Positions 56 to 59,406 of a stretch of 64,000 bases of DNA are shown one piece after another. The DNA is taken from positions 62,001 to 126,000 of the IMG/VR virus record IMGVR_UViG_3300021963_000027, one strand, 5' to 3'. Each line of letters opens with the position of its first letter. Position 1 is the first letter of the stretch. This DNA comes from a virus. The notes under the pieces are model-generated. The model was not told the DNA's origin, did no database searches, and worked only from the letters and a program-made list of their open reading frames with translations. The position numbers and the translations under genes are program-made.

Positions 56-128
56 TCCCAAGTAGCTCAGTTGGTAGAGCGCGTGACTGTTAATCACGTT
101 GTCGTAGGTTCGAACCCTACCTTGGGAG
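56..128 (+). tRNA. tRNA-Asn (GTT)
   Basis: A full cloverleaf can be folded by eye. The acceptor TCCCAAG (56-62) pairs with CTTGGGA (121-127), the anticodon stem is CGTGA/TCACG and the loop is CTGTTAA, with anticodon GTT at 89-91. The discriminator is G128 and no CCA is encoded, so maturation needs a CCA-adding enzyme, one of which is encoded at 4176-5696. It is the first of six tandem tRNA genes. Confidence 0.95.
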
Positions 129-133
129 CAGAA

Positions 134-209
134 GGGTGTGTAGCTCAGTTGGTAGAGCAAGAAGCTTTTAACTTCGTGGTCATAGGTTCAAATCCTGTCA
201 CACCCACCA
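134..209 (+). tRNA. tRNA-Lys (TTT), CCA encoded
   Basis: The acceptor GGGTGTG (134-140) pairs with CACACCC (199-205). The anticodon loop CTTTTAA carries TTT at 167-169. Discriminator A206 is followed by an encoded CCA (207-209). It lies 5 bp after tRNA-Asn, so the two are probably processed from one transcript. Confidence 0.95.
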
Positions 210-210
210 T

Positions 211-285
211 GCTTCTATCGTCTAATGGTTAGGACAGGTGGTTTTCATCCACCAAATAAGGGTTCGATTCCCTTTAGAAGTGCCA
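211..285 (+). tRNA. tRNA-Glu (TTC), CCA encoded
   Basis: The acceptor GCTTCTA (211-217) pairs with TAGAAGT (275-281, one G-T pair). The anticodon stem GGTGG/CCACC closes the loop TTTTCAT, with anticodon TTC at 244-246. Discriminator G282 is followed by CCA (283-285). Confidence 0.94.
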
Positions 286-287
286 AT

Positions 288-358
288 GCCTCCATAGTTC
301 AATGGTAGAACCCCCGATTTGTAATCGGGAGATACAGATTCGAATTCTGTTGGAGGCT
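288..358 (+). tRNA. tRNA-Thr (TGT)
   Basis: The acceptor GCCTCCA (288-294) pairs with TGGAGGC (351-357). The anticodon stem CCCGA/TCGGG closes the loop TTTGTAA, with TGT at 320-322. No CCA is encoded after discriminator T358. Confidence 0.94.
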
Positions 359-386
359 CTTGACAAAATAATTTTTATGATACAAT

Positions 387-473
387 GTGTTACCGCCAAA
401 GTTGGAGAGTTGGGAATGACTGTAAATCATTTGCCTTCGGGCTGAGTAGGTTCGAATCCTATGTAACACACCA
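387..473 (+). tRNA. tRNA-Tyr (GTA), long variable arm, CCA encoded
   Basis: The acceptor GTGTTAC (387-393) pairs with GTAACAC (463-469). The anticodon stem AATGA/TCATT closes the loop CTGTAAA, with GTA at 422-424. A class II variable arm, GCC-TTCG-GGC, follows, as expected for bacterial tRNA-Tyr. Discriminator A470 is followed by CCA (471-473). Confidence 0.93.
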
Positions 474-476
474 TAT

Positions 477-549
477 CGGGAGTTGATGTAACTTGGTAGC
501 ATGAGGCATTTGGATTGCTTTCGTCAGAGTTCAAATCTCTGGCTCCCGA
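477..549 (+). tRNA. tRNA-Pro (TGG)
   Basis: The acceptor CGGGAGT (477-483) pairs with GCTCCCG (542-548, one G-T pair). The stem AGGCA/TGCTT closes the loop TTTGGAT, with anticodon TGG at 511-513. Discriminator is A549 and no CCA is encoded. Its last 26 bp are also the antisense 3' end of the HNH endonuclease gene (stop at 524-526). Confidence 0.92.
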
Positions 550-1111
550 CTATTTTTTTCATATTCCAAAATCCATCACCAGCTAAAAAATGATCTTCTA
601 TATGACAAGTGGGACATAATATTTTTAAATTTTCTAATGTGTTATTGTGTCTATTTCTATCTATGTGATGCACTTGTAAAATTTCTGGATATTTATCATA
701 TCCACACCCAAAACATTTTTTATCATTAGCCCTAAAAGCTATATCTCTGTAATTAGTAATACCAGTTCCATAATGATCTGGTCTTATTTCTGGAAAATGA
801 TTTTCTAATCGTTGTGCATTATCTTTACACACTCTACTACAAAAATATAACCCAGATTTACTTTTATTAAGATGTGATTGTCTCCTTTTAAATAAATTTT
901 TACAAAAAGAACACGATATATTAACCATACTTCTTCGAGAAGTAGTATCTGCCCAGCATTTATGGGAACAAAAATTTTCAGAATTATTTTTGAAAATTCT
1001 TTTAGGTCTATCAGAAACTTCACCACATCCATCACATTTAAATTCTACGAATGTTCTCAACTTCCCTTCGGTATCTCTCTTTTTAAAATCTCTAATAATT
1101 AAAGTGGGCAT
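524..1111 (-). CDS. HNH homing endonuclease inserted in the tRNA cluster
   Basis: A 195-residue protein. The N-terminal half has two zinc-binding-like Cys clusters (CDGCG near residue 27 with CSHKC; CSFC with CSRVC). The C-terminal half is a classic HNH nuclease core: VHHIDRNRHNN, then LKILCPTCH. The family nicks or cuts DNA at a defined site and spreads its own gene by repair. It separates tRNA-Pro from tRNA-Gln and is antisense to both. Its last codons lie inside tRNA-Pro, so its C-terminus is dictated by tRNA sequence. No TAAATA element lies at the usual 5-nt spacing. An alternative is an immobile relic, but the HNH residues look intact. Confidence 0.85.
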   Translation of the reverse strand: MPTLIIRDFKKRDTEGKLRTFVEFKCDGCGEVSDRPKRIFKNNSENFCSHKCWADTTSRRSMVNISCSFCKNLFKRRQSHLNKSKSGLYFCSRVCKDNAQRLENHFPEIRPDHYGTGITNYRDIAFRANDKKCFGCGYDKYPEILQVHHIDRNRHNNTLENLKILCPTCHIEDHFLAGDGFWNMKKIVGSQRFEL

Positions 1112-1129
1112 AATATAATACTTACACTT

Positions 1130-1161
1130 TTATCCACTTTTTACAAATATATTTATCCACA
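1130..1161 (+). other. Two DnaA-box-like 9-mers
   Basis: TTATCCACT (1130-1138) and TTATCCACA (1153-1161) are direct repeats 23 bp apart, about two helical turns. The second matches the classic bacterial DnaA box exactly. They sit in the 58-bp AT-rich gap between the HNH gene start and tRNA-Gln. A role in replication or host DnaA titration is only an inference from two matches. Confidence 0.35.
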
Positions 1162-1169
1162 TTTTTAAT

Positions 1170-1243
1170 TGGGCGTTAGTGTAATGGTAGCACCGCAGAT
1201 TTTGATTCTGTTAGTAGAGGTTCAAGTCCTCTACGCCCTACCA
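1170..1243 (+). tRNA. tRNA-Gln (TTG), CCA encoded
   Basis: Acceptor pairs 1171-1176/1233-1238 (GGGCGT/ACGCCC), with an unpaired U1-U72 type end as is common for tRNA-Gln. The stem GCAGA/TCTGT closes the loop TTTTGAT, with anticodon TTG at 1202-1204. Discriminator A1240 is followed by CCA. It is separated from the other six tRNAs by the HNH gene. Confidence 0.93.
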
Positions 1244-1273
1244 CAATAACTTCAATTTCTCAAGTCAATATAT

Positions 1274-1279
1274 TAAATA
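1274..1279 (+). promoter_or_regulatory. Late-promoter-like TAAATA, 5 nt before gene 1285
   Basis: Hexamer TAAATA with 5 nt to the ATG. It matches the T4 late -10 element (TATAAATA) read by gp55, which is encoded at 53775-54215. The predicted start of transcription is the A of ATG. Confidence 0.65.
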
Positions 1280-1284
1280 ATATT

Positions 1285-1659
1285 ATGATTACATTTTCAA
1301 AATTTTTCGAATTGTTTTTAGAAAATTACAATGAAGTTCGGATATACAATAGTGTGGTGCGTCTTCCCATGGATAAACCTTATGGCTTTTGGATGGATAA
1401 GCATGGTAATTTCGCAGTTGTTAAAGGTGGAATGGGAGCGCATGAAAAAATTGGTAATTTGATTTTGGATCAACTTGGTATAGATTCAGGAGGAAGTGTG
1501 TATGAAACATTATTTGAAAATGGTTGGGTTCGTGTCATGTTAGACAGGGGTAAAACATATTATGAGATTCAACATGGAAGAAGATTAACTCCTATTCAAA
1601 GACGTAATTTATCTTTTATTAACGAATTCTACGAATTAAAAGGAGTTGAAGAAGGTTAA
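1285..1659 (+). CDS. Unknown protein with capsid-targeting-like N-terminus
   Basis: A 124-residue protein that I do not recognise. It opens with MITFSKFFELFLE-N, an aromatic/hydrophobic segment ending in F-L-E, like T4 internal-protein signals that end in I-A-E. The rest is a small mixed alpha/beta domain with no clear catalytic motif; the segment around residue 30 (KPYGFWMDKHGNFAVV) looks like a short beta-hairpin. It has its own TAAATA-N5-ATG element, so late expression is likely. If the peptide is a true tag, the mature protein begins near residue 14. Confidence 0.7.
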   Translation: MITFSKFFELFLENYNEVRIYNSVVRLPMDKPYGFWMDKHGNFAVVKGGMGAHEKIGNLILDQLGIDSGGSVYETLFENGWVRVMLDRGKTYYEIQHGRRLTPIQRRNLSFINEFYELKGVEEG

Positions 1660-1666
1660 TATTTTT

Positions 1667-2140
1667 ATGAGAACATTTCTAGAATCCTTTTATGATATCC
1701 AAGAGCTATCTCCGAATAGTAAGCTACAGGATATCTTGAATACTCACTATCTCAAAGTCTATCGTTCATCGGCTCGTCCCAATAAGAGTGATTATACTTC
1801 AGGTTCTCATGCAGGAACTAAACAACAAGCTCTAATTCGTGCCGATTATATGATCAATGATGAAGGGAAATACGACAAGTATTATCTTTATGAATTGACA
1901 ATTCGAATTGATAAAGTGTATCCCAAGTTACTATCTGATGATGGAACAGATCATGGATATGATTATGTAAAAGATTTAGGTGATTATGATATTGCTTTCT
2001 ATAAAAATACAGGAGAAGGTGATATCAGAAACGAAAATCTTTCCATTATCATCATCAATCCTGATAGCGTGGTTGAATCTAAAATGGTCGAAGAGATCGA
2101 TGGAGAGTATTTAACAGCAATGCAGGACGAATTATATTAA
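1667..2140 (+). CDS. Unknown protein, tag-like N-terminus, possible ADP-ribosyltransferase-like fold
   Basis: I start it at ATG 1667 rather than TTG 1646, because the ATG follows the previous stop by 7 nt and restores the pattern MRTFLESFYDIQE-L ([I]-x-E). The body contains SHAGTKQQALIRADYM and later YLYELTIRID and NLSIIIINPDSVV. That order (H-x-G-T, then strand pairs) is loosely reminiscent of small ART-like or toxin folds, but no catalytic triad can be assigned. It has no TAAATA of its own and probably shares the 1274 transcript. Confidence 0.65.
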   Translation: MRTFLESFYDIQELSPNSKLQDILNTHYLKVYRSSARPNKSDYTSGSHAGTKQQALIRADYMINDEGKYDKYYLYELTIRIDKVYPKLLSDDGTDHGYDYVKDLGDYDIAFYKNTGEGDIRNENLSIIIINPDSVVESKMVEEIDGEYLTAMQDELY

Positions 2141-2143
2141 ATA
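2138..2143 (+). promoter_or_regulatory. Late-promoter-like TAAATA, 5 nt before gene 2149
   Basis: TAAATA overlaps the stop codon of the preceding gene, and 5 nt separate it from ATG 2149. Confidence 0.65.
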
Positions 2144-2148
2144 ATAAT

Positions 2149-4179
2149 ATGAATTTTCAAGTCCAAGAACTTTATGAATCTGTGTTGATCACGGAGATGA
2201 ATCAAAAAGTTATTAATTATCTCGAACAACACACGGATGAATTACCTTTCGATCATATTTTCGGAGACAAAATGCGGGTAGCATTTCCTATTGGAACTGA
2301 CATCACTGCGCAAAATATCATCGATGATCTACGTAGAATCAAAAATTTTGATAAGATCGATCTCAAAAAAGGAGAAGTCATCCGTAAACTCAAAATCGAC
2401 CCAAAATATGGAAAGGGAGATTATCAAGAACAAAAAATTAATATAGGTAGAGCTATCTCAGCTTTGAAAATTGTAGAAGATAAAAAGAAAAAATATCTCG
2501 ATTGGTTTGCTAGATATAAAGATAATCTCGAAGCAGCTTTTGAGAAACCTGAATATGTTGTAGTATTGTCTCGTTCTCCGATTGATGTTGTTCGTATGTC
2601 CGACCATCGTAATATATCTTCATGCCATTCCCAAGGTGGTTCATATTTCTATTGTGCCATTCAAGAAGCGATAACTGGTGGGGCAGTTGCATATGTAGTA
2701 AATTCTCAAGATTTTGACGAATTGACGGAGGAAGAATTTCAAAATGATGAAATTTTTGTCGATCCTGATCGTGGGGTGAGAGGAGCTGGTTATGGTTTAA
2801 GACCACTTTCCAGATTGAGGGTTCGTCGATTAGAGGATGATGAGGGTAATGAAGTGGCAATACCCGATACTAAAATATATGGTAATCAATCGATTCCAAA
2901 CTTTTACAACTCACTTAAAAATTACCTCCAGAATAAACAATCTATAACTGCTGGTGATTTCACAGGGCAATACGAAAAAAGAGGCGGGACTTATTACGAT
3001 GATCAAATCGAAGAATTGTTAAGTGATTACTTCAGCGATGAAGATAATAAATATTATCGCCAAGACTTCCCCCGTGTGAAGCATAATCGAGATGATGATA
3101 GAGGAGAAACCAGACACAATGCTTTGAGTATTGAAGATGATTTGAGAAATATTAAAGATCGATACGAGGGTCAAATGACTCATAGTAGTGCCGATTATTA
3201 TATATTCGACGATGATGATAGAAGTTATTTCGATATGTCAGGTTATTCACAGTTAGATATTTCCAAATTTAATTTACCTGATGATATTGATATAGAAATT
3301 GAAGATGAATATTCTATTAGAAAATGGGTGGAAGGAAATTATGACGATAATTACGAATACTCAGCACTAATTCAGTATTTAAAAGATGCTTCCGAAATTC
3401 AAATTTATAGAATTGAAATGGATAATCAGTCTATCAAAATAACATTTAATGATCAGGAAACATCATCTGATCCAGATAATTTTGATTATTTTTGTCGAAA
3501 TATGAAAAGATTTGATGATAAGATAGATGACATGCTTGATGATGAAGACGAATTGTTTGAAGTATTCCTCACTGCTGGATTTATAAAGCCAGCCGAAATT
3601 GATGATAAAAATTTCACTATGATCAAAAATTATATCGATTTAGAAGAGGAGCCATTTACTCATTTATCCATATCTGGTCATGATATTAGAAAATCATTCA
3701 CTGTGAAGTTTCCAAACAGGATTTTCGTTATGCAAGGTGATTATAATGCTATTAGAGATATTAAAGGATATATTGGAGAATCTCATGTTAAACGTGTATT
3801 AAACGATATTATCATTAATTTAGCAAGAGAAACTTTCAAACCCGAATCAGACGAATACGATACCGCACAATTACAGTTTGATAAATTTTTCGAATCTTAT
3901 ACAAATCCTTTAGATGGTATAGATTATTCATTATCGTGTAACCCACATGATAATTACGGTAATTTAGAAATTAGTAATATGAGATTAAATTTCCCAAAAA
4001 TGGATAACAGAAATTATCAATTCGTTGAATTTTTAGATGATATGTATCTACATATCATCAACACATTCAAAGTGTGGGTATTAAATATTTTAAAATTTAC
4101 TAATAATTCTAGTTTCGAGGCATTAGCAAATCAATATAACTATAAACAATTATACAAACTATATAATAAATACCTATGA
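2149..4179 (+). CDS. Large acidic late protein of unknown function
   Basis: A 676-residue protein. The N-terminus MNFQVQELYESVLITE-M ends in I-T-E like the other tagged proteins. A central conserved-looking block reads VRMSDHRNISSCHSQGGSY and AYVVNSQDF, with Cys and His that could be catalytic or metal-binding. The rest is rich in D, E, Y and N. It has no membrane segment and is preceded by a late element. With the tag, a large injected head protein is a plausible role, comparable in position and size to T4 Alt, but I see no ADP-ribosyltransferase signature. Function unknown. Confidence 0.7.
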   Translation: MNFQVQELYESVLITEMNQKVINYLEQHTDELPFDHIFGDKMRVAFPIGTDITAQNIIDDLRRIKNFDKIDLKKGEVIRKLKIDPKYGKGDYQEQKINIGRAISALKIVEDKKKKYLDWFARYKDNLEAAFEKPEYVVVLSRSPIDVVRMSDHRNISSCHSQGGSYFYCAIQEAITGGAVAYVVNSQDFDELTEEEFQNDEIFVDPDRGVRGAGYGLRPLSRLRVRRLEDDEGNEVAIPDTKIYGNQSIPNFYNSLKNYLQNKQSITAGDFTGQYEKRGGTYYDDQIEELLSDYFSDEDNKYYRQDFPRVKHNRDDDRGETRHNALSIEDDLRNIKDRYEGQMTHSSADYYIFDDDDRSYFDMSGYSQLDISKFNLPDDIDIEIEDEYSIRKWVEGNYDDNYEYSALIQYLKDASEIQIYRIEMDNQSIKITFNDQETSSDPDNFDYFCRNMKRFDDKIDDMLDDEDELFEVFLTAGFIKPAEIDDKNFTMIKNYIDLEEEPFTHLSISGHDIRKSFTVKFPNRIFVMQGDYNAIRDIKGYIGESHVKRVLNDIIINLARETFKPESDEYDTAQLQFDKFFESYTNPLDGIDYSLSCNPHDNYGNLEISNMRLNFPKMDNRNYQFVEFLDDMYLHIINTFKVWVLNILKFTNNSSFEALANQYNYKQLYKLYNKYL

Positions 4180-5696
4180 AAAAATTCCATAAATTATACC
4201 ACCAACTCATGCGCGAGTATGTGGAAGACTTCGATCAGAAATGGGACAAAGCTGTTTCCGAATCGGAGGAGCTTCAGGTAGCTCTTGATTTGATGAAAAA
4301 TATCAAAGCAAAATTAAAAGGTGAAATTTATATCGTCGGTGGTGTTCCTCGTGATTTGCTCATGGGTAACGCAATTGATGATGTGGATTTGGCTACCAAT
4401 ATTCCTGTAGAACAATTGGAGAAACATTTTGAATTGAGAAATATTTCCAAGAACGATTCTCAACCAGTCTATGCTATCCTATGGAAAGGATATGTTTATG
4501 ATTTGGCAAAATTCAGAACTGATTCTGGTGATATTGGTAGACAAGCAAATGTCTCAACTGAGACTGATTCCTTCCAAGCTGATACAGAACGCAGAGATTT
4601 AACAATCAATTCTTTCGGGTTGGATGAGAATGGTAAGATCGTAGATTATCAAGGTGGTCTGGATGATTTGAAAAACAAAATCGTTCGTGCTGTAGGAGAT
4701 GCCAAGAAGAGATTCATGGAAGATGCTACAAGGATTCTTCGCGTTTTCCGATTCGCTGCCAAGATGGATTTTGAAATTGAAGACGATACTAAAAAAGCAG
4801 CAATCGAATTGAAATATTTGCTTCAAGATCCGAAAGCTATTTCCAAAGAAAGTATCTCAAAAGAATTTTATAAGTCTGCCAAGACTGGTAGAACTCTTGC
4901 CAATTTCTTGAAAAAATTACAAGACACCAAAATTCTCCATGACATTCTTCCTGAATTTACAGAGATGGAAGGTTTCGATCACGATCCTCAACATCACCCT
5001 GAAGGAGATTCTCAAGTATTGGGACACATCTATGAGTGTCTCAACGCTTCTCCCTACAAAGATCCTATTATTAATCTTGCTGTATTATTCCATGACTTTG
5101 GAAAAGCTACGACTAGAGGGAAAAAAGATAATGGATTTAGTAGCTATCATGGTCACGAAGCTGCTGGTGTTCCCATTGTCGAAGGGATATTTGAGAGACT
5201 AAGATTCAATGAATTGTCTCAACAAGATAAAAAGAATATCTTAGCGGCAGTGGATAAACACATGCTCGTTCATAATCTAGACAAACTCAATATTAAAACA
5301 CTGACTAGACTGATCCAAAATCCTGCATGGGAAACCATTAAAGCAGTTGGTTATTGCGATGAAGCATCGAGAGGCTCTGGTCTTTTCAATGAAAAAGAAT
5401 TTTGGGATAAAGTTAAAAGAGCAGAAGAAAAAGTATCCAACATCGGTGGTTCGGAAGATGAAACAAGAAAACGTCTCAAGCAATATTTCAGTGGAAATAA
5501 ATTGATGGAATGGTTTCCAGTTCTCATCAAAGACAAATCCAAGTTCAAAGATATTACAGCAGCACTACAAGAATATACTCTTGAAGAGTTGAATGCTGGT
5601 AGAGAACCAGATGATTCGGAAATGAAGACAATCGTTGCTGGTATTCTAAAGAAGAATCAATTTAATGAATGGTATAATTATTACCAGAAAAATTAA
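4176..5696 (+). CDS. CCA-adding enzyme / poly(A)-polymerase family nucleotidyltransferase with HD domain
   Basis: A 506-residue protein of the class II nucleotidyltransferase family that adds CCA to tRNA 3' ends. Visible motifs are GGVPRD (55-60), DDVDLAT with the metal-binding D69/D71, RRDLTIN (139-145), EDATRILR (about 182-189) and an HD phosphohydrolase motif, FHDFGK (305-310). About 48 residues precede the GGVPRD motif, more than bacterial enzymes need, and open with MKKFHKLYHQLMRE-Y, which fits the tag pattern. A TAAATA lies 3 nt before the ATG, inside the end of the previous gene. tRNAs Asn, Thr and Pro at the window start lack encoded CCA. CCA addition versus plain A addition cannot be settled from motifs alone. 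Confidence 0.88.
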   Translation: MKKFHKLYHQLMREYVEDFDQKWDKAVSESEELQVALDLMKNIKAKLKGEIYIVGGVPRDLLMGNAIDDVDLATNIPVEQLEKHFELRNISKNDSQPVYAILWKGYVYDLAKFRTDSGDIGRQANVSTETDSFQADTERRDLTINSFGLDENGKIVDYQGGLDDLKNKIVRAVGDAKKRFMEDATRILRVFRFAAKMDFEIEDDTKKAAIELKYLLQDPKAISKESISKEFYKSAKTGRTLANFLKKLQDTKILHDILPEFTEMEGFDHDPQHHPEGDSQVLGHIYECLNASPYKDPIINLAVLFHDFGKATTRGKKDNGFSSYHGHEAAGVPIVEGIFERLRFNELSQQDKKNILAAVDKHMLVHNLDKLNIKTLTRLIQNPAWETIKAVGYCDEASRGSGLFNEKEFWDKVKRAEEKVSNIGGSEDETRKRLKQYFSGNKLMEWFPVLIKDKSKFKDITAALQEYTLEELNAGREPDDSEMKTIVAGILKKNQFNEWYNYYQKN

Positions 5697-5917
5697 TCTT
5701 TGTGCCATTTCTCCATCTTGGAGTAATATTCTGGATCTTCTTCCACATGTTGTTTAGCAATCGTTTTTGCTAACTTCTTTCCTAACTTTGTTTTCCTCTT
5801 AGAAGGATTGACATGCTCTTGCTCTACTTCTTCCCCTTTGGAAACCTCTGGTTTAGGGAGATCTTTTTTCTTAACTTTTTTGAAGTAGTCATTAAAGAAA
5901 TCTTGGAATTTTTTCAT
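5693..5917 (-). CDS. Small basic protein, tag-like N-terminus
   Basis: A 74-residue protein starting MKKFQDFFNDYFKK and then very rich in Lys, Glu and Pro (KTKLGKKLAKTIAKQ). It may bind DNA or act as a head-core filler, but nothing identifies it. It lies 4 nt downstream of the previous minus-strand gene (TAATAATATG junction) and overlaps the CCA-enzyme stop codon, with the two stops sharing TTAA. Confidence 0.6.
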   Translation of the reverse strand: MKKFQDFFNDYFKKVKKKDLPKPEVSKGEEVEQEHVNPSKRKTKLGKKLAKTIAKQHVEEDPEYYSKMEKWHKD

Positions 5918-5921
5918 ATTA

Positions 5922-6740
5922 TTAGTGTTCAGTGTTCTCGCTTAATTTTTTACGATATCCATATTCAGCAACAGATGGGTATCCACCTGTAACGTGTTTA
6001 ACTTCTAATGGATCAACTCCTCTAAATTCCCACACCACTTTTTTCTCAAATGGTGTCATGTTGAATCCAGTATGCGCTCTCATTAGAATATCAACAATCT
6101 CATCATGTGACAATTCTGGATAGATTCTACTCTTCAATTCTTTAATTTCACCAGAAGAAGAATCTCTATAGGTGTCTCCATCATAATTAAATTTGGAAGA
6201 ATCGGAAGCAACCCAAAAAAGATCAGTTGCTTTAAAACATTTTTTTAATTCTTGGATATATTCAGGGGTGATATCTTTTTCTCTACACCAGAAAGCGATG
6301 ACTGAGACATTTTTTTTAAGTGTTTTACTTTCAATACTTTTCCAGATTCTTCCTGATTGACTTTTGATTCTCGTTTCTCCCATCGCTTGAGAACGTTGGT
6401 TCTGATTGTAGAAATCTAAATCAGACTTATTCATTTTGCCACACACTTTAACATCATAAGACTTCAACACATTTTTAGTATTATCAGGATATTGAAGTGC
6501 TTCTTTCAACCCATTGAAAATGAATAAGTGAGTTGCTCCAGTGTATAGGATAACATTTCCAATTTTAGAAAAAGCATAACCATCGGAATGAGCATAAACA
6601 CCACCGTCAAATTTCAAAGAATCGGGATTGGATTTGTTCGATGGAATTGTGACATTTTCAAATAATACAACACCTCTGGTAGCTGCACGTTCTTCCAAAA
6701 TTTTATTATAAAGTTCTCTGATGTTTAATTCGTCTCTCAT
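5922..6740 (-). CDS. Unknown late protein, tag-like N-terminus
   Basis: Start set at ATG 6740, which overlaps the upstream stop as ATGA; the longer reading frame would need TTG. The 272-residue protein begins MRDELNIRELYNKILEE-R, ending in L-E-E. The body has alternating beta and alpha segments (VILYTGATHLFIFNG; VSVIAFWCREKD) and a C-terminal stretch mentioning VVWEFRGVDPLEV. I recognise no family. Third gene of a translationally coupled set 7635 to 5922. Confidence 0.65.
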   Translation of the reverse strand: MRDELNIRELYNKILEERAATRGVVLFENVTIPSNKSNPDSLKFDGGVYAHSDGYAFSKIGNVILYTGATHLFIFNGLKEALQYPDNTKNVLKSYDVKVCGKMNKSDLDFYNQNQRSQAMGETRIKSQSGRIWKSIESKTLKKNVSVIAFWCREKDITPEYIQELKKCFKATDLFWVASDSSKFNYDGDTYRDSSSGEIKELKSRIYPELSHDEIVDILMRAHTGFNMTPFEKKVVWEFRGVDPLEVKHVTGGYPSVAEYGYRKKLSENTEH

Positions 6741-7024
6741 GTCAACCAAATTTCTTCTGTTTGTTTAAATTTATCTATCAATAATTCCAAATTTTTAGAT
6801 TGAAAATTACAATCAATCATGGTCTTTACAGTGTGCCTATTGTTGTTATTACAGAATGATAATTTGTAATTCAAATCAGCCATTTTAGGCTCGTGTTCAA
6901 CGATCATCAGGAATGTATCATACATTCCTGATGGAAGGGGAATTGGATCGCCTGTAAAAATAACTTCCACTCCATCACTATTTGGAGCATTACTCATATA
7001 TTCTTTAGGATAAATTACTATCAT
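6737..7024 (-). CDS. Unknown small protein
   Basis: A 95-residue protein without a recognisable motif. ATGA overlaps at both ends couple it to the neighbours. The sequence alternates strands and helices (VEVIFTGDPIPLP, FLMIVEHEPK). It has no tag-like N-terminus, unlike both neighbours. Confidence 0.55.
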   Translation of the reverse strand: MIVIYPKEYMSNAPNSDGVEVIFTGDPIPLPSGMYDTFLMIVEHEPKMADLNYKLSFCNNNNRHTVKTMIDCNFQSKNLELLIDKFKQTEEIWLT

Positions 7025-7635
7025 CGTGCTAATTTCATGTAAACAACCACTGTTTCAGCATTTCGGTCAATGTTGCCATCGTCGTCAAGAGAATAGGAAA
7101 TACCATTGAACACTGGATAAGGCATTGTATCATCGTTTTTATCTTTGTCAATAACAAAACCATTTCGACTGTAGAGTCTGAATAATTTTTTTGGTATGAT
7201 ATTGCCATCACCATCTTGTTCCGCAAAACAATCCAAACGTCTAGCACCATTTTTAATAGCACTTTTTACTGCCGCATCTCCCGAAGATTCTATGCCAGAA
7301 AAAACCGAAACCAATTCATCACCCTTTTTGATGCAATATCCGCTGGTATTGTTTGGTCCGATAAAACATTTCATCTCTGCGTATTCTTCGGGATCATAAA
7401 TGGTGATGTTATTTTTAATATCTTTAAACCATTCATGTTCTTTATGTTCGGGGTCAGCACGTTTAGTGTCCGATTCCATGTAAGCATTGATGATTTTATA
7501 AAATGATCTCCAATCAACTTTTTTAAATTTTTCAGAATCTTCAGGTGTTAGTTTTCTACTGATTTTTAATTGTTCAGGTGATAATTTCCCAAGATCTGAA
7601 AATGCTTCCCAAAAGAATTGATAAAATGACTTCAT
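7021..7635 (-). CDS. GNAT-like acetyltransferase candidate with tag-like N-terminus
   Basis: Start moved to ATG 7635, because TAAATA lies exactly 5 nt upstream and the protein then begins MKSFYQFFWE-A, very close to T4 MKTYQEFIAE. The C-terminal 120 residues resemble a GNAT fold: GYCIKKGDELVSVFSG (strand pair), SAIKNGARRLDCFA, then LFRLYSRNGFVI, which matches the usual L-x-x-Y-x-x-x-G-F end of GNATs. The acetyl-CoA loop (Q/R-x-x-G-x-G/A) is not convincing, so activity is uncertain. If packaged, it would be delivered with the DNA. Confidence 0.62.
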   Translation of the reverse strand: MKSFYQFFWEAFSDLGKLSPEQLKISRKLTPEDSEKFKKVDWRSFYKIINAYMESDTKRADPEHKEHEWFKDIKNNITIYDPEEYAEMKCFIGPNNTSGYCIKKGDELVSVFSGIESSGDAAVKSAIKNGARRLDCFAEQDGDGNIIPKKLFRLYSRNGFVIDKDKNDDTMPYPVFNGISYSLDDDGNIDRNAETVVVYMKLAR

Positions 7636-7640
7636 TCTAT

Positions 7641-7646
7641 TATTTA
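7641..7646 (-). promoter_or_regulatory. Late-promoter-like TAAATA, 5 nt before gene 7635
   Basis: TAAATA on the minus strand, with 5 nt to the ATG that starts the GNAT-like gene. It decides the start choice. Confidence 0.65.
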
Positions 7647-7655
7647 ATAAAATTT

Positions 7656-7934
7656 TCAACTATCTAGGTATTTGTCAATAACCATCGTAAGATAGTCGGC
7701 AAACCAACAAATAGATGATGCGTAAAATCCCCAAAGAGGGATTAGGAAAGGTGTGCCTGACCAGAACATCCCGAAGAAACATCCTACCCAAAATCCGAGA
7801 CACATGCAGCACTTGAATAATTTTTCAAAGAATTTCATTTCAGTCAAACGATTTCGAATGGGATTTAGAATTGATCCGTATTTCAGGATCAGACAAGCAC
7901 CAATTAATACAAAAGATTGAAACCAAAGACTCAT
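7656..7934 (-). CDS. Small membrane protein, DUF1360-like
   Basis: A 92-residue protein with about three hydrophobic segments (SFVLIGACLIL; CCMCLGFWVGCFFGMF; FLIPLWGFYASSICWF). The C-x-x-C-x-G-F-W-x-G motif is typical of small phage inner-membrane proteins of the DUF1360 type. The role of that family is not known to me. It overlaps the next upstream gene by 4 nt. Confidence 0.6.
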   Translation of the reverse strand: MSLWFQSFVLIGACLILKYGSILNPIRNRLTEMKFFEKLFKCCMCLGFWVGCFFGMFWSGTPFLIPLWGFYASSICWFADYLTMVIDKYLDS

Positions 7935-8128
7935 CCTAGAATAAGTTTTTGGTCATCAATCGTTTTCACACCATCTGAAATCAGGAGTGCTTCTTCTTTT
8001 CTCACGATAATTTTGTTACCAAAATCATCTGTGATTTCTACCATACCGTCTGTAAGTTCTGTGACTACTGGGCAACTTTTCCCTTTGCAGCACAACTTAA
8101 CACTATTATTATTCAGAATTTTAATCAT
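7931..8128 (-). CDS. Small Cys-containing phage protein
   Basis: A 65-residue protein with LCCKGKSCPVV followed by EITDDFGNKI, an arrangement I recall from small conserved proteins of marine T4-like phages. The Cys trio may bind metal. A TAAATA lies 8 nt upstream of the ATG. No function is known. Confidence 0.6.
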   Translation of the reverse strand: MIKILNNNSVKLCCKGKSCPVVTELTDGMVEITDDFGNKIIVRKEEALLISDGVKTIDDQKLILG

Positions 8129-8139
8129 AACAAAATTAT

Positions 8140-8523
8140 TTATCCAAAGATTTGAGAAATCAATGATTTTCTCTCTTTCAAATTATAAACAAATACTTTC
8201 AATCCTTTATTTTTAGAATAATCAATCATGTGTTTAGTGCCTTTCGATCCCCCATCCCACACAGCTACAAGAGCATCTGCATAGTCACCCATTTCCTCAT
8301 TCCTACGTGGTCCTGCCGATTTTCCAAATTTTTTCCAATTAGCAGGAAATTTTTTAATAGGGATATTGTTTTCTTTAGCCCATTGTTCTCCCATGGTGTC
8401 AACACCACAAGCTTTGCCTGAAACCACTTCAGTTATTTCAGATGACCATGGACATTCTTCCATCGCTGAAAGAATGTCCTGATATTTATTCACATCGCGT
8501 GAACCAGCTATAATACAGCGCAT
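8140..8523 (-). CDS. SLOG / DUF2493 Rossmann-like protein
   Basis: A 127-residue protein. IIAGSRD at the N-terminus, then VVSGKACGVDTMGEQWA and AGPRRNEEMGDYADALVAV are the standard DUF2493 signature within the SLOG superfamily, which binds nucleotide or nucleotide-derived ligands. In phages the job is not established. It follows the ThyX stop with a TAATATG junction, so it is co-translated or at least co-transcribed with thyX. Confidence 0.8.
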   Translation of the reverse strand: MRCIIAGSRDVNKYQDILSAMEECPWSSEITEVVSGKACGVDTMGEQWAKENNIPIKKFPANWKKFGKSAGPRRNEEMGDYADALVAVWDGGSKGTKHMIDYSKNKGLKVFVYNLKERKSLISQIFG

Positions 8524-8524
8524 A

Positions 8525-9205: not shown

Positions 9206-9208
9206 ATT

Positions 9209-9586: not shown

Positions 9587-9624
9587 GTTTCCAATTTAGC
9601 ACATTTTTTTAATTTGTCAAGTAC

Positions 9625-9630
9625 TAAATA
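9625..9630 (+). promoter_or_regulatory. Late-promoter-like TAAATA, 5 nt before gene 9636
   Basis: TAAATA with 5 nt to ATG 9636. It heads the DUF1353-endolysin pair. Confidence 0.65.
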
Positions 9631-10685: not shown

Positions 10686-11003
10686 TTATTTATTTGGGTT
10701 TAATCTTTCCTTTAATTTTGCAAATGCGTTTCTTATCGCATTATCAATATTATCGGAATTTCCCGTGCATTCATCTTCAACATCTTGGATGATTTTTAAA
10801 ATTCCTTCCAATTCTTCTTCTTGTTCGCCATAAACATGAGCAGTCACCATTGGAGGTGCTATTCCAATTATTTGTTTATTATAAGATAATTTAGTACCAG
10901 CTTCTTGGGGGACTTCTTGCTTCGGAACTCTTTGAGGTGGATTGAAACCACTTTGATATTCCAGAATCAAATCAGCATAGACTTGTTGTAAAAATTTATC
11001 CAT
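10686..11003 (-). CDS. Unknown late protein, tag-like N-terminus
   Basis: Start at ATG 11003, 5 nt after a minus-strand TAAATA. The 105-residue protein begins MDKFLQQVYADLILE-Y (I-L-E). A Pro/Gln-rich linker follows, then an acidic helical end (EQEEELEGILKIIQDVED). No family recognised. Divergent from the ClpP-like gene. Confidence 0.62.
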   Translation of the reverse strand: MDKFLQQVYADLILEYQSGFNPPQRVPKQEVPQEAGTKLSYNKQIIGIAPPMVTAHVYGEQEEELEGILKIIQDVEDECTGNSDNIDNAIRNAFAKLKERLNPNK

Positions 11004-11008
11004 GATAT

Positions 11009-11014
11009 TATTTA
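11009..11014 (-). promoter_or_regulatory. Late-promoter-like TAAATA, 5 nt before gene 11003
   Basis: Minus-strand TAAATA, 25 bp from a plus-strand TAAATA at 11039: a divergent promoter pair. Confidence 0.65.
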
Positions 11015-11038
11015 ATTTGATAACATAGATTTCCATGT

Positions 11039-17410: not shown

Positions 17411-18898
17411 TTACAGGTAAGTGCTAACAGAACCAGGAGTAAACGCAGTACCAAGACCTTTGACAATGATCAGGTGATAATAAAGATTAGCACCGAAGAT
17501 ATTGTTTACGATACCATAACGGGTCATGAGTCCAACGCGAGGAGCGAAATCATTCGGTCCAATTGTGCGTTGCACCATAATCGGGATGTATGGGCAGTAA
17601 ATAATACCTGTGTCATAGTATTCAGAACCTTTGTAACCCAACAGAGCATACTCAACACCGCCACTGGTTTGACCAGTGTAGGGAGTGCCATAAAGGTTAG
17701 TGTTCTGAACTTCAGTCCGAGTATCACGATAAACCGTCCAGCGGCTACCAACCGTACCAACTTTAGCAATACCTACACCAGCCGTGGAAACAGTTCCATT
17801 AACTTCAAAAACTTTGAAGTCAGGAAGCATTTCAAGGATGCTGCAAACACGAGGAGTTGCGATAACAAAGTTAGCAGCACCTCTACGGTTACGAGCAGCC
17901 ATACGACCACTTTCGATAAGCAAACGTTGATAGAAGGTAAGGTTTCTTTCAGCAGTCCAACGACCATCCGCACTAACAGGACTCCAGATGGAGAAACCTG
18001 CGCCAGCACCAGCATTGAAAGCGGTTTGGATCATACGCATCACAACTTCACGGTCGATCTCAGCTTGGATCTCATACGACATTGCATTCGTAAGTTCTCC
18101 ATCGATATCGATACCGTTCATGTTTTTGATGTCTTGTTCCAACTCTACACTCCAACGAGTTGCAAGTCTACGTGTTCCAGCTTCAACAGCAGTTTTGTCA
18201 AACTTGAGTTCGATTTGAGGGATTTTACCCGTCAATTCGTAGTTGCTCAAGAGTTCAGCAATACCACGGTCTTGATCTGCGAATGTCCAGTGTTCGGTGT
18301 TACCCGAAAGGAATGCAGCAGATGTGCCAGTGAAACGTGTGTCCAGAAGTTGATAACCAAGTTCGTCGGAGGTATTAGAACCAATGGTTCCAAGACCAGC
18401 ACTACCAGTGTAAGCAGCTTTAAGCTGACTACCAAAGGAAGAACCAGTTCCGCCTTGAGAAGCGTATCCATCGATACCACCATCGCTCAGAGTATCACCT
18501 TGATAGGCATAACGGAGAGCGAAAGCAAGACCAACAGGTCCGCCCATAGGCTGAACGCCAACAATTTCGTTGGAAATCAATTCAGGGAAAGTGCGTCGAA
18601 TCATAGGAATCAGAATCTTTGGCAAACGAGCATCACCTGAAGCATAGGAGTCGCTGTTAGCGATACCTGGAACTCCAGTTGGTTGCAAAGTTGCACCAAA
18701 AACGCCGTTACTACCAGCGTTATTCGATTCTTGAAAGCACCACTGTTCTTGGTTCTCAAGCAGCATAGCGGTAGTCTTGTAAACGTGTTCGTTCTGGATA
18801 GCAGGAATCGAGTTCGAGCTATAGTCCAGCACTTTACGCCATTTAGCGACTGCGCGTTGCATTTTTGAGCCATTTAAATCAGTTTGTGGGATATTCAT
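17411..18898 (-). CDS. 23: Major capsid protein (gp23 family)
   Basis: A 495-residue HK97-fold major head protein. The stretch around residues 95-125 (RLPKILIPMIRRTFPELIS then NEIVGVQPMGGPVGLAFALR) is the hallmark of T4 gp23 relatives. An N-terminal propeptide should be removed by gp21; the LLENQEQW region near residue 47 has an L-x-x-E-like site. The start lacks a TAAATA-N5 element (CAAATA with 3 nt instead), so it may be read from the scaffold promoter. A strong terminator follows. Confidence 0.95.
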   Translation of the reverse strand: MNIPQTDLNGSKMQRAVAKWRKVLDYSSNSIPAIQNEHVYKTTAMLLENQEQWCFQESNNAGSNGVFGATLQPTGVPGIANSDSYASGDARLPKILIPMIRRTFPELISNEIVGVQPMGGPVGLAFALRYAYQGDTLSDGGIDGYASQGGTGSSFGSQLKAAYTGSAGLGTIGSNTSDELGYQLLDTRFTGTSAAFLSGNTEHWTFADQDRGIAELLSNYELTGKIPQIELKFDKTAVEAGTRRLATRWSVELEQDIKNMNGIDIDGELTNAMSYEIQAEIDREVVMRMIQTAFNAGAGAGFSIWSPVSADGRWTAERNLTFYQRLLIESGRMAARNRRGAANFVIATPRVCSILEMLPDFKVFEVNGTVSTAGVGIAKVGTVGSRWTVYRDTRTEVQNTNLYGTPYTGQTSGGVEYALLGYKGSEYYDTGIIYCPYIPIMVQRTIGPNDFAPRVGLMTRYGIVNNIFGANLYYHLIIVKGLGTAFTPGSVSTYL

Positions 18899-18960: not shown

Positions 18961-19845
18961 TTATCTTCTGAATTCCATCGTTTGAAGGACACTCAGATAA
19001 GGATTATTTTCCTCTACATCATTACTTACCTTTTCCGTGATAATTTTTTGATTTTTCACGAAATCTGGCTTATGTTTACGATTTTGTAGAGCTTCTTCCT
19101 TGATTACTTCAAGTTGTTTCTTCTCTTGTTTTTCAAAAAGACGCACTGTGTAATCGAAATTTTCTTTGATAAAGGTAAGAGACTTGTCACCAAGAGCTTT
19201 CTTAATGAAGTTCTTTTTAGATTCAGGATACTTGGAAGTCTTACCTTCGAGGAAGAGTTTAACTTGTGTGTTATTTTTCTCTTCAGTGATAACTTTGAGA
19301 TTGCTCTTCAAAGAAGCGTTCTCATTACGAAGTTTATCCAATTCAGTTTTACCTTGTAGAATTGCATCGGAAACAGATTCTTTCATGACAGCAGAATCAA
19401 TTGCAAACACTCTGCGAAGATTTTCCAGAACACTCATGGCAGTTTTATTCTTAACTGCTTGCTCAATATCTTTAGCAGGAATGGATTCACTCAAAAATTC
19501 TTCCAAATAAGCACTAACAGATTCAGTGAGTTGTTTTTTGAATCTGATCAGATCACTTTGTTGTTCTCTTTCGTATTTCTTAACAACTTTAACCAATTTG
19601 GCAGTCTTATCTCTATCGAAAGCTTCCATCAATTTTTTCATTTTGATGGTGCGATCTTTATCGAGAGATTCCATAACTGATCCCAATTTAGCAGCATACA
19701 CTTCATCCTGTTCAACCAATGCAGCTTCAACTGCAAGATCTACTTTAGCTTCCAAAGCTTTTTGGATAGCATTAACGGATTCGTCGGAAAGACCGAGACT
19801 TTTTTGAACGTCTTCAGAGAAAAGATTCTGTTTGTTTTTCTTCAT
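18961..19845 (-). CDS. 22: Prohead scaffolding protein (gp22-like)
   Basis: A 294-residue highly charged, helical protein directly upstream of the capsid gene, the T4 position of gp22. Long coiled-coil segments (DKDRTIKMKKLMEAFDRDK; EREQQSDLIRFKKQL) and several L/I-x-E sites fit a core protein that gp21 destroys during maturation. The end, NPYLSVLQTMEFRR, resembles the conserved gp22 C-terminus that contacts the shell. Confidence 0.88.
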   Translation of the reverse strand: MKKNKQNLFSEDVQKSLGLSDESVNAIQKALEAKVDLAVEAALVEQDEVYAAKLGSVMESLDKDRTIKMKKLMEAFDRDKTAKLVKVVKKYEREQQSDLIRFKKQLTESVSAYLEEFLSESIPAKDIEQAVKNKTAMSVLENLRRVFAIDSAVMKESVSDAILQGKTELDKLRNENASLKSNLKVITEEKNNTQVKLFLEGKTSKYPESKKNFIKKALGDKSLTFIKENFDYTVRLFEKQEKKQLEVIKEEALQNRKHKPDFVKNQKIITEKVSNDVEENNPYLSVLQTMEFRR

Positions 19846-20331: not shown

Positions 20332-20337
20332 TATTTA
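20332..20337 (-). promoter_or_regulatory. Late-promoter-like TAAATA, 5 nt before core-protein gene
   Basis: TAAATA overlaps the end region of the protease gene, with 5 nt to ATG 20326. Confidence 0.68.
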
Positions 20338-21000
20338 GATACTATTGATAAATTTTATGATTTGTTGACGAAGATACGAATCAACATCACGCCTTGGAAG
20401 GGTCTTAATCGTTTGTTCAAAATTTTCATAGACTTCTTCAAAAGAACCGTCTTGCTCAATAACGAATGTTTTACTTTCCAGAATACCATTAACAAATGCT
20501 TTTGGATAAGATGGATCAGCAACAGCATCGATAGCTACCAAGTGCATGTTCTGAACCAAATTATAATCACGATTTTCCATCAATTGTCCCAATGCACGAG
20601 TGGACATACCAACTTTAACGCCATCATTGATAAGCGCACGGAGGATCTGACCAGTAGGTGTTGACAATACTTTTGCTTTACCAACAAAATAATCATTAAC
20701 TTCAGTCAATTCTGTGACCAAATGGCAAGCTCTTTCCAGATTAACATCAGCACTGGTGGGGTGATTCAACTCACCCATCGCTCTACCTGGAAGAACCATC
20801 TCGTTGATATATCTTTGAACTTCAGTTCTTGTATCATCAAGTTTATACATTCTTTTATTTTTATTCACGCTATTGCAACCAATGAATGGTCCTTTAACGT
20901 AAAGATTGGATGTGCTATTTCGATTGGATTGTTCTTCGATAACTTCAAAGTTATCAAACACATCAGGATTCTCTGCGATTAATTTAAGTTTCAACGCCAT
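20335..21000 (-). CDS. 21: Prohead core protease (gp21 family)
   Basis: A 221-residue serine protease of the herpesvirus-assemblin-like S78/S80 group. GELNHPTSADV has the catalytic His (H80) and VKVGMSTRALG the nucleophile Ser (S133). The family cleaves after L/I-x-E in capsid, core and internal proteins, which matters here because many late proteins carry such sites near their N-terminus. Confidence 0.92.
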   Translation of the reverse strand: MALKLKLIAENPDVFDNFEVIEEQSNRNSTSNLYVKGPFIGCNSVNKNKRMYKLDDTRTEVQRYINEMVLPGRAMGELNHPTSADVNLERACHLVTELTEVNDYFVGKAKVLSTPTGQILRALINDGVKVGMSTRALGQLMENRDYNLVQNMHLVAIDAVADPSYPKAFVNGILESKTFVIEQDGSFEEVYENFEQTIKTLPRRDVDSYLRQQIIKFINSI

Positions 21001-46559: not shown

Positions 46560-47117
46560 TCAAGGATTTCTTTGTTGAGAAGTTTGTTCTCCCTCTGGTC
46601 TAGCTGTTTCATCCCAATATTGATCCTGATTATTTAGTTTCATGAATACGTCCGTTCTAGGTTTGATAACCCATTCAAAGATATCTTTATCTTTATCAAA
46701 AAGAATAATTGCTTGAGGATATCTATATTTTTTACCAGCAACAGATTCACCTTCTGGTGTAACACCTTTTTGAGCCACTTTAACCAGATAGTGCTGCCCC
46801 TTTGGGGTATTTTTTCCAGTTTTAATTTTTTCATTAGGAATTGGCACTATACCTTGTTCATCCATCCAATCCAAAATTCTTTCTTCTATAGTTTGATAGG
46901 CTTGACCCACTCTTTGTATAATACCTCTACCTGCTGATCTTATATTAGCAAGTTTAGAGCTAGTATCAGGCGCGACAACTTTACCAAATTCTTTACCTAA
47001 TTGATAAGCTGATTTAGCAAATCTACCGATTTTAGAATTGGCGACTTTTGCTTTAGTTTTTTTAAAAGAATCCCAAAGTCCTTCTTCCAATAATTCTCTT
47101 TGTGATAACTTATACAT
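46560..47117 (-). CDS. Unknown late protein, tag-like N-terminus
   Basis: A 185-residue basic protein starting MYKLSQRELLEE-G (L-E-E). It has a long amphipathic helical section (SKIGRFAKSAYQLGKEFG), then a small beta domain (HYLVKVAQKGVTPEGE; AIILFDKDKDIFEWVIK). No family recognised. It overlaps the protease-like gene by 8 nt. Confidence 0.62.
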   Translation of the reverse strand: MYKLSQRELLEEGLWDSFKKTKAKVANSKIGRFAKSAYQLGKEFGKVVAPDTSSKLANIRSAGRGIIQRVGQAYQTIEERILDWMDEQGIVPIPNEKIKTGKNTPKGQHYLVKVAQKGVTPEGESVAGKKYRYPQAIILFDKDKDIFEWVIKPRTDVFMKLNNQDQYWDETARPEGEQTSQQRNP

Positions 47118-47568
47118 CGACTGATAATTGTTTGTCTGCTACATTATTTAATGCCACATCAATTAGGGCATCCAATTCATTTTTAATAAAGTCTTTCCCG
47201 ATCAAAACCTTGTGATCATTTGTGGATCGATTACTAATAGAAAAGGGGATACTTTTAAATTTTTTACCCCCTATGACGCAATCGAAAAGACACACAGGTC
47301 TTTCAACAGTATTTCCTTCTCCGATATTAATTATAATTGTATCTTCTGTGGGTTTTTCTAATCTCATGGAATTGGTGGTTGTGAATCTTACTATCTTCTC
47401 GCCTGTTTTCTTATCCTTGCCAAATTCAACATCTTCTCCATGTAATACATTGTAAGCACCGTTACCAGTATCCAATTTAGCGGAAATAGTCCCGACACCA
47501 TCAACAATGATATCTTCTACTAGACCGAAGATATTTTTTTCCACAAAGAATTGTTTGAAACTTGTCAT
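47110..47568 (-). CDS. Retropepsin-like aspartic protease candidate with tag-like N-terminus
   Basis: A 152-residue protein. It opens with MTSFKQFFVE-K, one of the closest matches to the T4 signal MKTYQEFIAE. Then VGTISAKLDTGNGAYNVLHG contains the D-T-G catalytic triad of single-domain (retropepsin/RimB-like) aspartic proteases, and FSISNRSTNDHKVLIGKDFI matches the family's N-R and V-L-I-G-x-x-F signature. Such enzymes act as dimers. If packaged, it could process host proteins after injection. Confidence 0.65.
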   Translation of the reverse strand: MTSFKQFFVEKNIFGLVEDIIVDGVGTISAKLDTGNGAYNVLHGEDVEFGKDKKTGEKIVRFTTTNSMRLEKPTEDTIIINIGEGNTVERPVCLFDCVIGGKKFKSIPFSISNRSTNDHKVLIGKDFIKNELDALIDVALNNVADKQLSVDV

Positions 47569-50240: not shown

Positions 50241-51167
50241 ATGGAACTGAATTACATCAAAAATATTGACGCAATGACTGGATTGAAGGAATTGCCCGAC
50301 AAATCGATCCATTGTTGTCTCACATCACCTCCTTACTACAACCTTCGTCAATACACAGATGATGAAAATGAATTTGGATTGGCAGAGACACCTGAAGAAT
50401 TTGTCAATGGATTATGTGATTACTACGATGAAGTTTACCGTGTAATGCGAGATGATGGTGTGGTATTTGTGAACTTGGGAGACACATATCTTGGAAGTGG
50501 TAAAGGTGTTTGGAAAAACAAAGAAGAACCTCAAAAAGAGTCATTCAAATTTCGAGAAAAACCCAAAGAAAAATTGGGTGGTTGGAGAAAACCCAAACAA
50601 TTGGCACTAATTCCTTTCCGTTTTGCCATTGAGATGCAGAACAGAGGTTGGATTTTGAGAAATAATATCGTGTGGCATAAAGGAAATGCCCTTCCACAGA
50701 GCGTTACAGATCGTTTCGTCGTTGATTTTGAATCGGTGTTCATGTTTGTGAAAAGTAAATCGTATTATTTCAAACAACAAATTGAACCATTTGCCAATTC
50801 TTCCAATCCTGATGAAGTATATACAGGAGAGGCTACGAAGGATTATGAGTCTCAGAAGGCTCAGAACCCAAGTGATACGAAGAGAAGGATTCTGGACGCA
50901 ATGCGTAAGCGAGGAGGACGCTCCATGAGAGCAGTTTGGAAAATTAATACCAAACCCAACAAGTCCGTTCACACGGCTACATTTCCTGAAGAATTGGTGG
51001 AACGTATGTTGAAGAGTGGATGTCCTGAAAACGGTATCGTATTGGACTTCTTCATGGGTTCAGGAACAACAGGAGCAGTTGCCAAACAATTAGGTATGAA
51101 TTATATCGGCTTCGATTTGAATTCCGAATATTGTGAAGTAGCGAGAAAGAGAATTAATTCTTTTTAA
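50241..51167 (+). CDS. DNA methyltransferase, N6-adenine/N4-cytosine type
   Basis: Start at ATG 50241, set by promoter P2. The 308-residue protein has CCLTSPPYYNLRQY (motif IV), VVFVNLGDTYLGSG, and near the end VLDFFMGSGTTGAVA (motif I) and YIGFDLNSEYCEVA. The middle 100 residues form a variable target-recognition region. Likely protects phage DNA or marks it. No matching endonuclease gene nearby. Confidence 0.9.
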   Translation: MELNYIKNIDAMTGLKELPDKSIHCCLTSPPYYNLRQYTDDENEFGLAETPEEFVNGLCDYYDEVYRVMRDDGVVFVNLGDTYLGSGKGVWKNKEEPQKESFKFREKPKEKLGGWRKPKQLALIPFRFAIEMQNRGWILRNNIVWHKGNALPQSVTDRFVVDFESVFMFVKSKSYYFKQQIEPFANSSNPDEVYTGEATKDYESQKAQNPSDTKRRILDAMRKRGGRSMRAVWKINTKPNKSVHTATFPEELVERMLKSGCPENGIVLDFFMGSGTTGAVAKQLGMNYIGFDLNSEYCEVARKRINSF

Positions 51168-51390
51168 TTTTCTTCTTACGTTTTCTATTTTTCAATTTAC
51201 CTCTTCTGGTGGTGACACCCATCCCATAAGGATTCCTTGCATCTCCTGGCGCAAACCAATCGGTATTTTCAATACCAGCATGTCCAGCAACATCCCCCCC
51301 ATATACATCACCAGCAGTCATATCTTCGTTCAACATTTGTTGATAAATGTTGGCGATTTCATTTTTATCGTTGACAAAGGGTTGGTTCAT
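51154..51390 (-). CDS. Small late protein, tag-like N-terminus and basic tail
   Basis: A 78-residue protein. NEIANIYQQMLNE-D (residues about 10-22) ends in L-N-E, and the remainder TAGDVYGGDVAGHAG, WFAPGDARNPYG and a strongly basic end RKRKKKIKKN resembles small late proteins of T4-like phages. The tail suggests DNA contact. It overlaps the methylase 3' end by 14 bp. Confidence 0.62.
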   Translation of the reverse strand: MNQPFVNDKNEIANIYQQMLNEDMTAGDVYGGDVAGHAGIENTDWFAPGDARNPYGMGVTTRRGKLKNRKRKKKIKKN

Positions 51391-58758: not shown

Positions 58759-59406
58759 GTGAAAAGTAAAAATTATTTCTCAGATATTGCAAACATTTAT
58801 TCGAGGATTATAAACGAATCTCCCGATAATATTACAATTATCGATGATAATGGTCATCGTAAATATCTTTCGTATGATAGCACTCCAAATGCTTATACAG
58901 GTCTTATCGGTAGAGATGGTGAATATGTCTTGTCTAAAGACATTGTGGGGCATAGTAATTTGATTGCTGCTATTAATAGTAGTGATGACGATATTATTCA
59001 AAAATTAATAACTAATGCTGATGATGTCGAAGATTTGAAAAGATTGGCAAGAGAAAGAATAAAAATAAGAATCTGGAAAAATCAAAAAGTTTATAGCATG
59101 TGGGATAAATATGATCCTTCATATGAAGATGCTATTAAAGATTCTCTGAAAGCAATAGGCGAAAATTATCAAGATTATAAATATGATAATGAATATGAAG
59201 AGTATGCAAATTTTCGTGACGCTGATACTTTTTTTGTAAACACTTTAACAGATGAACAAAAAGAAGAGAAAATGAAAGCTGAAATGGAAAAACGTGCAGC
59301 CGATAGAGCTTTAGCAGATAGAATAGCTGGTGTCAGACGAAAAGCTTCGAGTGATTATGACGCTCCTTATAAAAAACCTTCTTGGATGAATAGAGAAGGG
59401 GATTGA
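58759..59406 (+). CDS. Unknown late protein, tag-like N-terminus, GTG start
   Basis: A 215-residue protein starting at GTG 58759, 5 nt after TAAATA. It begins MKSKNYFSDIANIYSRIINE-S (I-N-E). The middle is acidic and beta-like; the end is helical with a run of charged residues (KAEMEKRAADRALADRI), then Pro-containing PYKKPSW. No family recognised. Confidence 0.62.
   Translation: MKSKNYFSDIANIYSRIINESPDNITIIDDNGHRKYLSYDSTPNAYTGLIGRDGEYVLSKDIVGHSNLIAAINSSDDDIIQKLITNADDVEDLKRLARERIKIRIWKNQKVYSMWDKYDPSYEDAIKDSLKAIGENYQDYKYDNEYEEYANFRDADTFFVNTLTDEQKEEKMKAEMEKRAADRALADRIAGVRRKASSDYDAPYKKPSWMNREGD

Follow-up and report, generated by a model that had tools for sequence, protein, structure and literature searches.

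The capsid targeting sequence of bacteriophage T4 reads MKTYQEFIAE/A, and those T4 internal proteins (IPs) whose targets are known inhibit restriction enzymes. Such sequences are 10-19 residues long, with positions 4 and 7 serving in targeting and with an L/I-x-E site cleaved by gp21 (PMC9026906), and the T4 IPs are known leader-tagged, injected proteins (PMC12373910). CCA-adding enzymes encoded by phages are also known (PMC7824862). On the defence side, Cas12a3 nucleases cut the CCA tails of tRNAs upon sensing phage RNA, one orthologue originating from a Bacteroidetes bacterium (PMC12851939). We analysed here a CCA-adding enzyme gene from a viral DNA stretch of 64,000 nucleotides (the window, positions 62001-126000 of the 184,181-base IMG/VR virus record IMGVR_UViG_3300021963_000027; the whole genome to which it belongs is designated G000). 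A sequence-only reading of this DNA had proposed that the enzyme carries a head-targeting-like tag. This proposal is well supported: unrelated neighbouring proteins of a relative share a common leader, the kind of leader is conserved in diverged phage CCA enzymes and it is coupled to a late-gene-type element. In the literature searched, whose coverage is incomplete, we found no CCA enzyme described as having a packaging leader.

The N-terminal leader of the phage CCA-adding enzyme

The protein encoded by the open reading frame (ORF) 4176..5696 begins with MKKFHKLYHQLMREYVEDFDQKW. The catalytic carboxylates D69/D71, the RRD motif (139-141) and the EDxxR motif (182-186) were invariant in an alignment of 28 phage sequences. 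The AlphaFold2 (AF2) model of the enzyme, with a mean predicted local distance difference test score (pLDDT) of 89, was matched to the known CCA-adding enzyme structure 1miv (E 2.4e-17, template modelling score 0.75 by target length). As judged from its sequence, the enzyme is complete and intact. The HD domain of the E. coli CCA enzyme removes 3' phosphates, and by analogy that of the window enzyme might do the same. About 50 residues precede the YIVGG motif (residues 52-56), in agreement with the earlier count of some 48 residues ahead of the first motif. The additional N-terminal segment is MKKFHKLYHQLMRE-YVEDF. Model confidence is low over residues 1-20 (53-59, and <50 at residues 10-14), where a loose helix gives way to a break. 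The leader shows aromatic or hydrophobic residues around positions 4 and 7 (F4, L7/Y8) and a hydrophobic-x-Glu site, M-R-E, after which (Glu14) it would be cut; the corresponding site is I-Q-E, I-K-E or I/L-x-E in relatives.

Bacterial homologues were compared for the same extension and the tag stands: among the 79 with a located motif A, a median of 24 residues lies ahead of this motif and the strict leader pattern is present in a single sequence. It was detected in 18/77 viral homologues. The leader was not found on the CCA enzymes of seven named phages (phiN3, phiM12, Vibrio D181, RHph_I1_18, helene 12B3, Av-05 and Tunturi_5), which have 3-30 residues ahead of motif A, and none of the matches listed was a tagged CCA enzyme from a named cultured phage. 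With the solved CCA enzymes, the earliest alignment start is query residue 24. An ordinary extension of CCA enzymes is ruled out as the origin of the leader by the bacterial and named-phage comparisons.

CCA enzymes of uncultured phages, 30-95% identical to that of the window, often bear leaders resembling the T4 capsid targeting sequence, for instance MKFENYINE/AR. Close relatives retain FHKLYxxLMRE or FDGSYLLLIQE, and in a wider scan enzymes with about 30-37% identity open with MKFENYINEAR, MKFLKYLNEAQ, MRLTRYLNEAK, MRFKRYLAEAR, MKFIQYINES and similar sequences; an enzyme of another lineage, about 31% identical, opens with MKFKQWLFSEE. Each of the 27 extended N-termini of phage CCA enzymes has a hydrophobic-x-Glu site inside residues 6-17, against 10.9 on average and at most 20 in 5000 shuffles; because the sequences are related, the comparison does not amount to a strict probability. 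Furthermore, F, Y or L occupies position 3 or 4 in 23 of these N-termini.

Portability of the leader and the TAAATA element

In the relative L067, nine genes within 11.5 kb (273-9073) share a 13-residue leader, M[RK][SN]KDQI[LI]LE[NGS][LI]Y, and comparison of their bodies past this leader gave nothing better than E 0.36. Among the nine are the gene of the CCA enzyme, those of two GNAT acetyltransferases and one whose product has an HExxH motif. In G013, an independent T4-like genome (the L079 contig), the strict pattern occurs at 18/278 gene starts versus 1/744 internal Met (p=6e-10, approximate since several start codons were tried per gene), and the starts bearing it cluster around the CCA gene. 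In G000, only a degenerate version of the leader is common to unrelated bodies; the window-type 11-mer is enriched there, the pattern having been defined on the same genes. Runs of small genes opening with one leader type (MSFEKYLKE, MRFKDYLSEA, MKFKHLLNEK) were observed over the whole loci L071, L074, L079 and L085, and could represent a putative large set of injected proteins.

In three relatives (L005, L007 and L064) the leader and the CCA core are separated by an extra domain, and a further leader-like stretch is found at the junction of this domain with the core. A domain of about 315 residues, here called X, precedes the enzyme in L005 and L007; the fusions open with the leaders MKRFNSLYKKLME and MRRFHGLYKKLMA, and the junction of L007 reads FDQEYEMLMRE-YVEDF. 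The insert of L064 is different from X. In L015, domain X and the junction are present and the CCA enzyme is absent. Free-standing X domains have leaders of their own, in L012 (MINFTEFFEE) and in L036-L040 (MNFKQWFFNE). Domain X was always leader-tagged (L015 3820-4782; L012 8207-9322, minus strand; L036 5896-7065). It gave no Pfam or PHROG match and no match in G000; its AF2 model is poor (54) and the matches to 8-oxoguanine DNA glycosylase-like folds are insignificant (E 0.7 or worse). The L007 fusion (8987-11908) is a four-part protein of 974 residues in an open frame, in which leader, X and CCA-adding enzyme are followed by a C-terminal NUDIX domain, and it resembles a multi-enzyme cargo protein. 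That the leader is purely a fusion remnant is not favoured, given the nine unrelated leader genes of L067.

The TAAATA that had been noticed 3 nucleotides upstream of the CCA-gene ATG is indeed present; it lies within the final codons of ORF 2149..4179, which comes just before the gene and overlaps it by ATGA. In the whole genome, TAAATA lies <=14 nucleotides from the start in 56 of the 288 predicted genes, and at exactly 5 nucleotides in 43 of them, for a chance expectation of about 0.0006 per start and position. Among the genes concerned are those of the prohead protease, the core and the tail, and many that bear a leader. TAAATA is also found at 5 nucleotides, behind other upstream sequence, in L003/L004, L006, L011 and L067, as well as before the L007 fusion, TAAGTA taking this place in L005 and L015. 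Because of this recurrence at fixed spacing and its conservation in relatives with other upstream sequence, a coincidence inside upstream coding sequence is ruled out. The T4 late promoter is TATAAATA, and its likeness to the element, together with the set of genes preceded, suggests that TAAATA is a late promoter. A Shine-Dalgarno (SD)-like sequence was detected in only 11/288 genes, which would fit a Bacteroidota-type host. In positions 1-62000 of G000 (L018-L021), many early-region genes have a AGAATACAATTGAGAC-like sequence abutting the ATG; with the near absence of SD sequences, these could possibly be promoters abutting the start codon and giving leaderless mRNAs.

Proposed packaging of the enzyme and competing explanations

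The sequence data show an intact enzyme, a portable leader, a late-gene-type element and a T4-type protease and capsid in one genome. We think it probable that the leader serves for capsid targeting and is removable, as are those of the T4 internal proteins, and that the CCA enzyme is made late, packaged, trimmed by the prohead protease, injected and active on tRNA ends; packaging, cleavage, ejection and the biological target are inferred. After late production, the leader would draw the enzyme into the prohead core, where the S77 prohead protease would probably free it after the hydrophobic-x-Glu site (Glu14). The freed enzyme would be retained in the head and injected with the DNA, and from the first minute in the new cell it would be able to add CCA to, or restore it on, the tRNAs of both host and phage. 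It could thereby offset damage to host tRNA ends and finish the phage tRNAs lacking an encoded CCA. Late synthesis of an enzyme that is useful early is a difficulty which injection would solve.

Concerning the target, delivery with the DNA would allow the repair of tRNA ends damaged by defence nucleases, and mending 3' ends, such as those left by tail cleavage of the Cas12a3 type, would be a reasonable role. Some tRNAs are cleaved by Cas12a3 at the discriminator base, a loss beyond what a CCA enzyme could mend by itself. Maturation of phage tRNAs is a plausible role. The Asn, Thr and Pro tRNAs reported to lack CCA were confirmed; this count of three was too low, as Met and Gly tRNAs just upstream of the window and a second Met tRNA in the record also lack it. 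Maturation does not explain the tag, because phages with untagged CCA enzymes could mature their tRNAs too. A broader proposal, that several T4-like and other large phage lineages pack a CCA-adding enzyme in the head as an injected antidote to immunity removing tRNA 3' tails (e.g. Cas12a3), within a sizeable leader-tagged cargo and with the HD domain perhaps cleaning damaged 3' ends before CCA addition, is advanced tentatively and is rather doubtful at present. If leader-tagged CCA enzymes of several lineages were injected, tRNA repair would join the functions delivered at time zero, and the enzyme would form a direct counterpart of the recently described CCA tail-cutting defence (Cas12a3, PMC12851939). 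The leader could also allow the injected protein sets of uncultured phages to be listed from sequence alone.

Several observations weigh against packaging in the head. The P3 residue of the window site is Met where Leu or Ile is expected, and the TAAATA of the CCA gene is at 3 nucleotides and not at 5. G000 shows no excess of the T4-type 10-mer at gene starts (3/288 vs 3/632), and the window-type 11-mer on non-homologous genes of relatives is borderline (p=0.056). In addition, S77 and Gp23 were found in 6/12 records with a tagged CCA enzyme versus 8/18 untagged ones, i.e. no association in this sample, in which many records may be incomplete or another protease may be used.

That T4-type protease and capsid were not found in several tagged-CCA records favours a genuine portable tag with a destination other than the head interior, docking proteins either onto another late structure or onto the scaffold with no packaging and ejection. 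We regard this as unlikely, given the late-gene-type element and a leader that is like the T4 capsid targeting sequence in its length, its aromatic positions and its hydrophobic-x-Glu site. An ordinary late or early enzyme, maturing phage tRNAs where it is made and bearing an incidental N-terminal helix or the remnant of an upstream domain fusion, would be compatible with the fused forms of L005, L007 and L064 and with the several phage tRNAs devoid of CCA. This explanation deserves little credence, since the leader occurs on nine unrelated genes of L067, its kind is conserved at 30-40% identity and the lone X domain has leaders of its own. Finally, the pattern is short and degenerate and its T4-type 10-mer lacks enrichment in G000, as would be expected if the resemblance arose by chance; such an origin is scarcely credible, being already contradicted by the shared L067 leader and the 27/27 result, and opposed by the 1/79 frequency in bacterial homologues and by the clustered starts of G013.

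Other features and comparison with known systems

Judged by its Gp23 and S77 prohead protease genes, the window phage is T4-like. The coordinates are collected in Table 1.

Table 1. Features of the window discussed in the text (nt, nucleotides; aa, amino acids)
Feature	Position	Strand	Basis or remark
tRNA cluster, with Asn, Thr and Pro genes devoid of a terminal CCA	56..550	+	
Leader-bearing ORF MITFSKFFELFLEN	1285..1659	+	TAAATA at 5 nt
Leader-bearing ORF MNFQVQELYESVLITE	2149..4179	+	TAAATA at 5 nt
TAAATA late-gene-type element, 3 nt ahead of ATG	4167..4172	+	genome-wide element
CCA-adding enzyme, class II tRNA nucleotidyltransferase with HD domain, N-terminally tagged	4176..5696	+	506 aa; Pfam, motifs, AF2 model
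Capsid-targeting-like leader, residues 1-14 MKKFHKLYHQLMRE, proposed cut after Glu14	4176..4217	+	kind conserved in relatives; low model confidence at residues 1-20; leader portable in L067
Linker and helices before motif A, residues 15-50	4218..4325	+	alignment and model
Nucleotidyltransferase (PolyA_pol) head domain, residues 51-171	4326..4688	+	PF01743, 5e-25 (Pfam)
HD domain, residues 299-377	5070..5306	+	PF01966, 26.9 bits, above cut-off (Pfam)
Leader-bearing ORF, NIRELYNKILEE close to N-terminus	5922..6749	-	
Leader-bearing ORF MKSFYQFFWEAF	7021..7659	-	TAAATA at 5 nt
Leader-bearing ORF MDKFLQQVYADLILE	10686..11036	-	TAAATA at 5 nt
Major capsid protein Gp23	17411..18898	-	PF07068, 1e-85
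Probable gp22-like scaffold core protein	18961..19845	-	inferred from position beside gp23 and protease, and composition
T4-type prohead protease, Peptidase_S77, gp21-like	20335..21000	-	PF03420, 4e-29
Leader-bearing ORF MTSFKQFFVEK, body a Zn_protease-family protein	47110..47568	-	PF05618, 6e-10
Leader-bearing ORF EIANIYQQMLNE	51154..51390	-	TAAATA at 5 nt
Leader-bearing ORF DIANIYSRIINE	58759..59406	+	TAAATA at 5 nt

Other RNA-repair capacity was noticed in G000, where an RNA ligase (PF09414) without leader is encoded at 23282-24661 in an early-type region; no kinase of the polynucleotide kinase type exceeded the cut-off in this genome. In L103 (4416-6401), an untagged phage CCA enzyme has a P-loop kinase-like domain (RGVPGSGKSTLA) fused ahead of it, which suggests a tRNA-repair fusion. 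On the minus strand of the window (34945-41899), a run of ORFs giving the impression, from their translations, of glycosyltransferase-like and methyltransferase-like proteins is flanked by structural and nucleotide-metabolism genes.

Among described systems, ejected virion enzymes such as the N4 virion RNA polymerase (PMC12633501) offer a proposed likeness in that a packaged and injected enzyme acts at once, whereas the window enzyme and its packaging signal are unrelated to those of N4. Phage polyvalent proteins (PMC5512222) unite several enzymes in one multidomain protein, as does the leader-X-CCA-NUDIX protein of L007; the window protein, in contrast, is a single enzyme with a T4-type leader. 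With the class II CCA-adding enzymes of phages and bacteria (PF01743; phrog_2244; PMC7824862) the window enzyme shares catalytic motifs, fold and HD domain, but it has an extra N-terminal leader of 20-25 residues, and some of its relatives have further domains between leader and core, one of them with a C-terminal NUDIX. T4 IPI-IPIII and Alt (PMC9026906, PMC12373910) are like the window system in that otherwise unrelated proteins open with a short leader, which has aromatic positions and a hydrophobic-x-Glu site, and in that the phage is T4-like and encodes Gp23 and S77 protease. The window leader differs by its 14 residues and its Met at P3, and its role in packaging is a putative one; its cargo is a tRNA nucleotidyltransferase instead of a restriction inhibitor or an ADP-ribosyltransferase.
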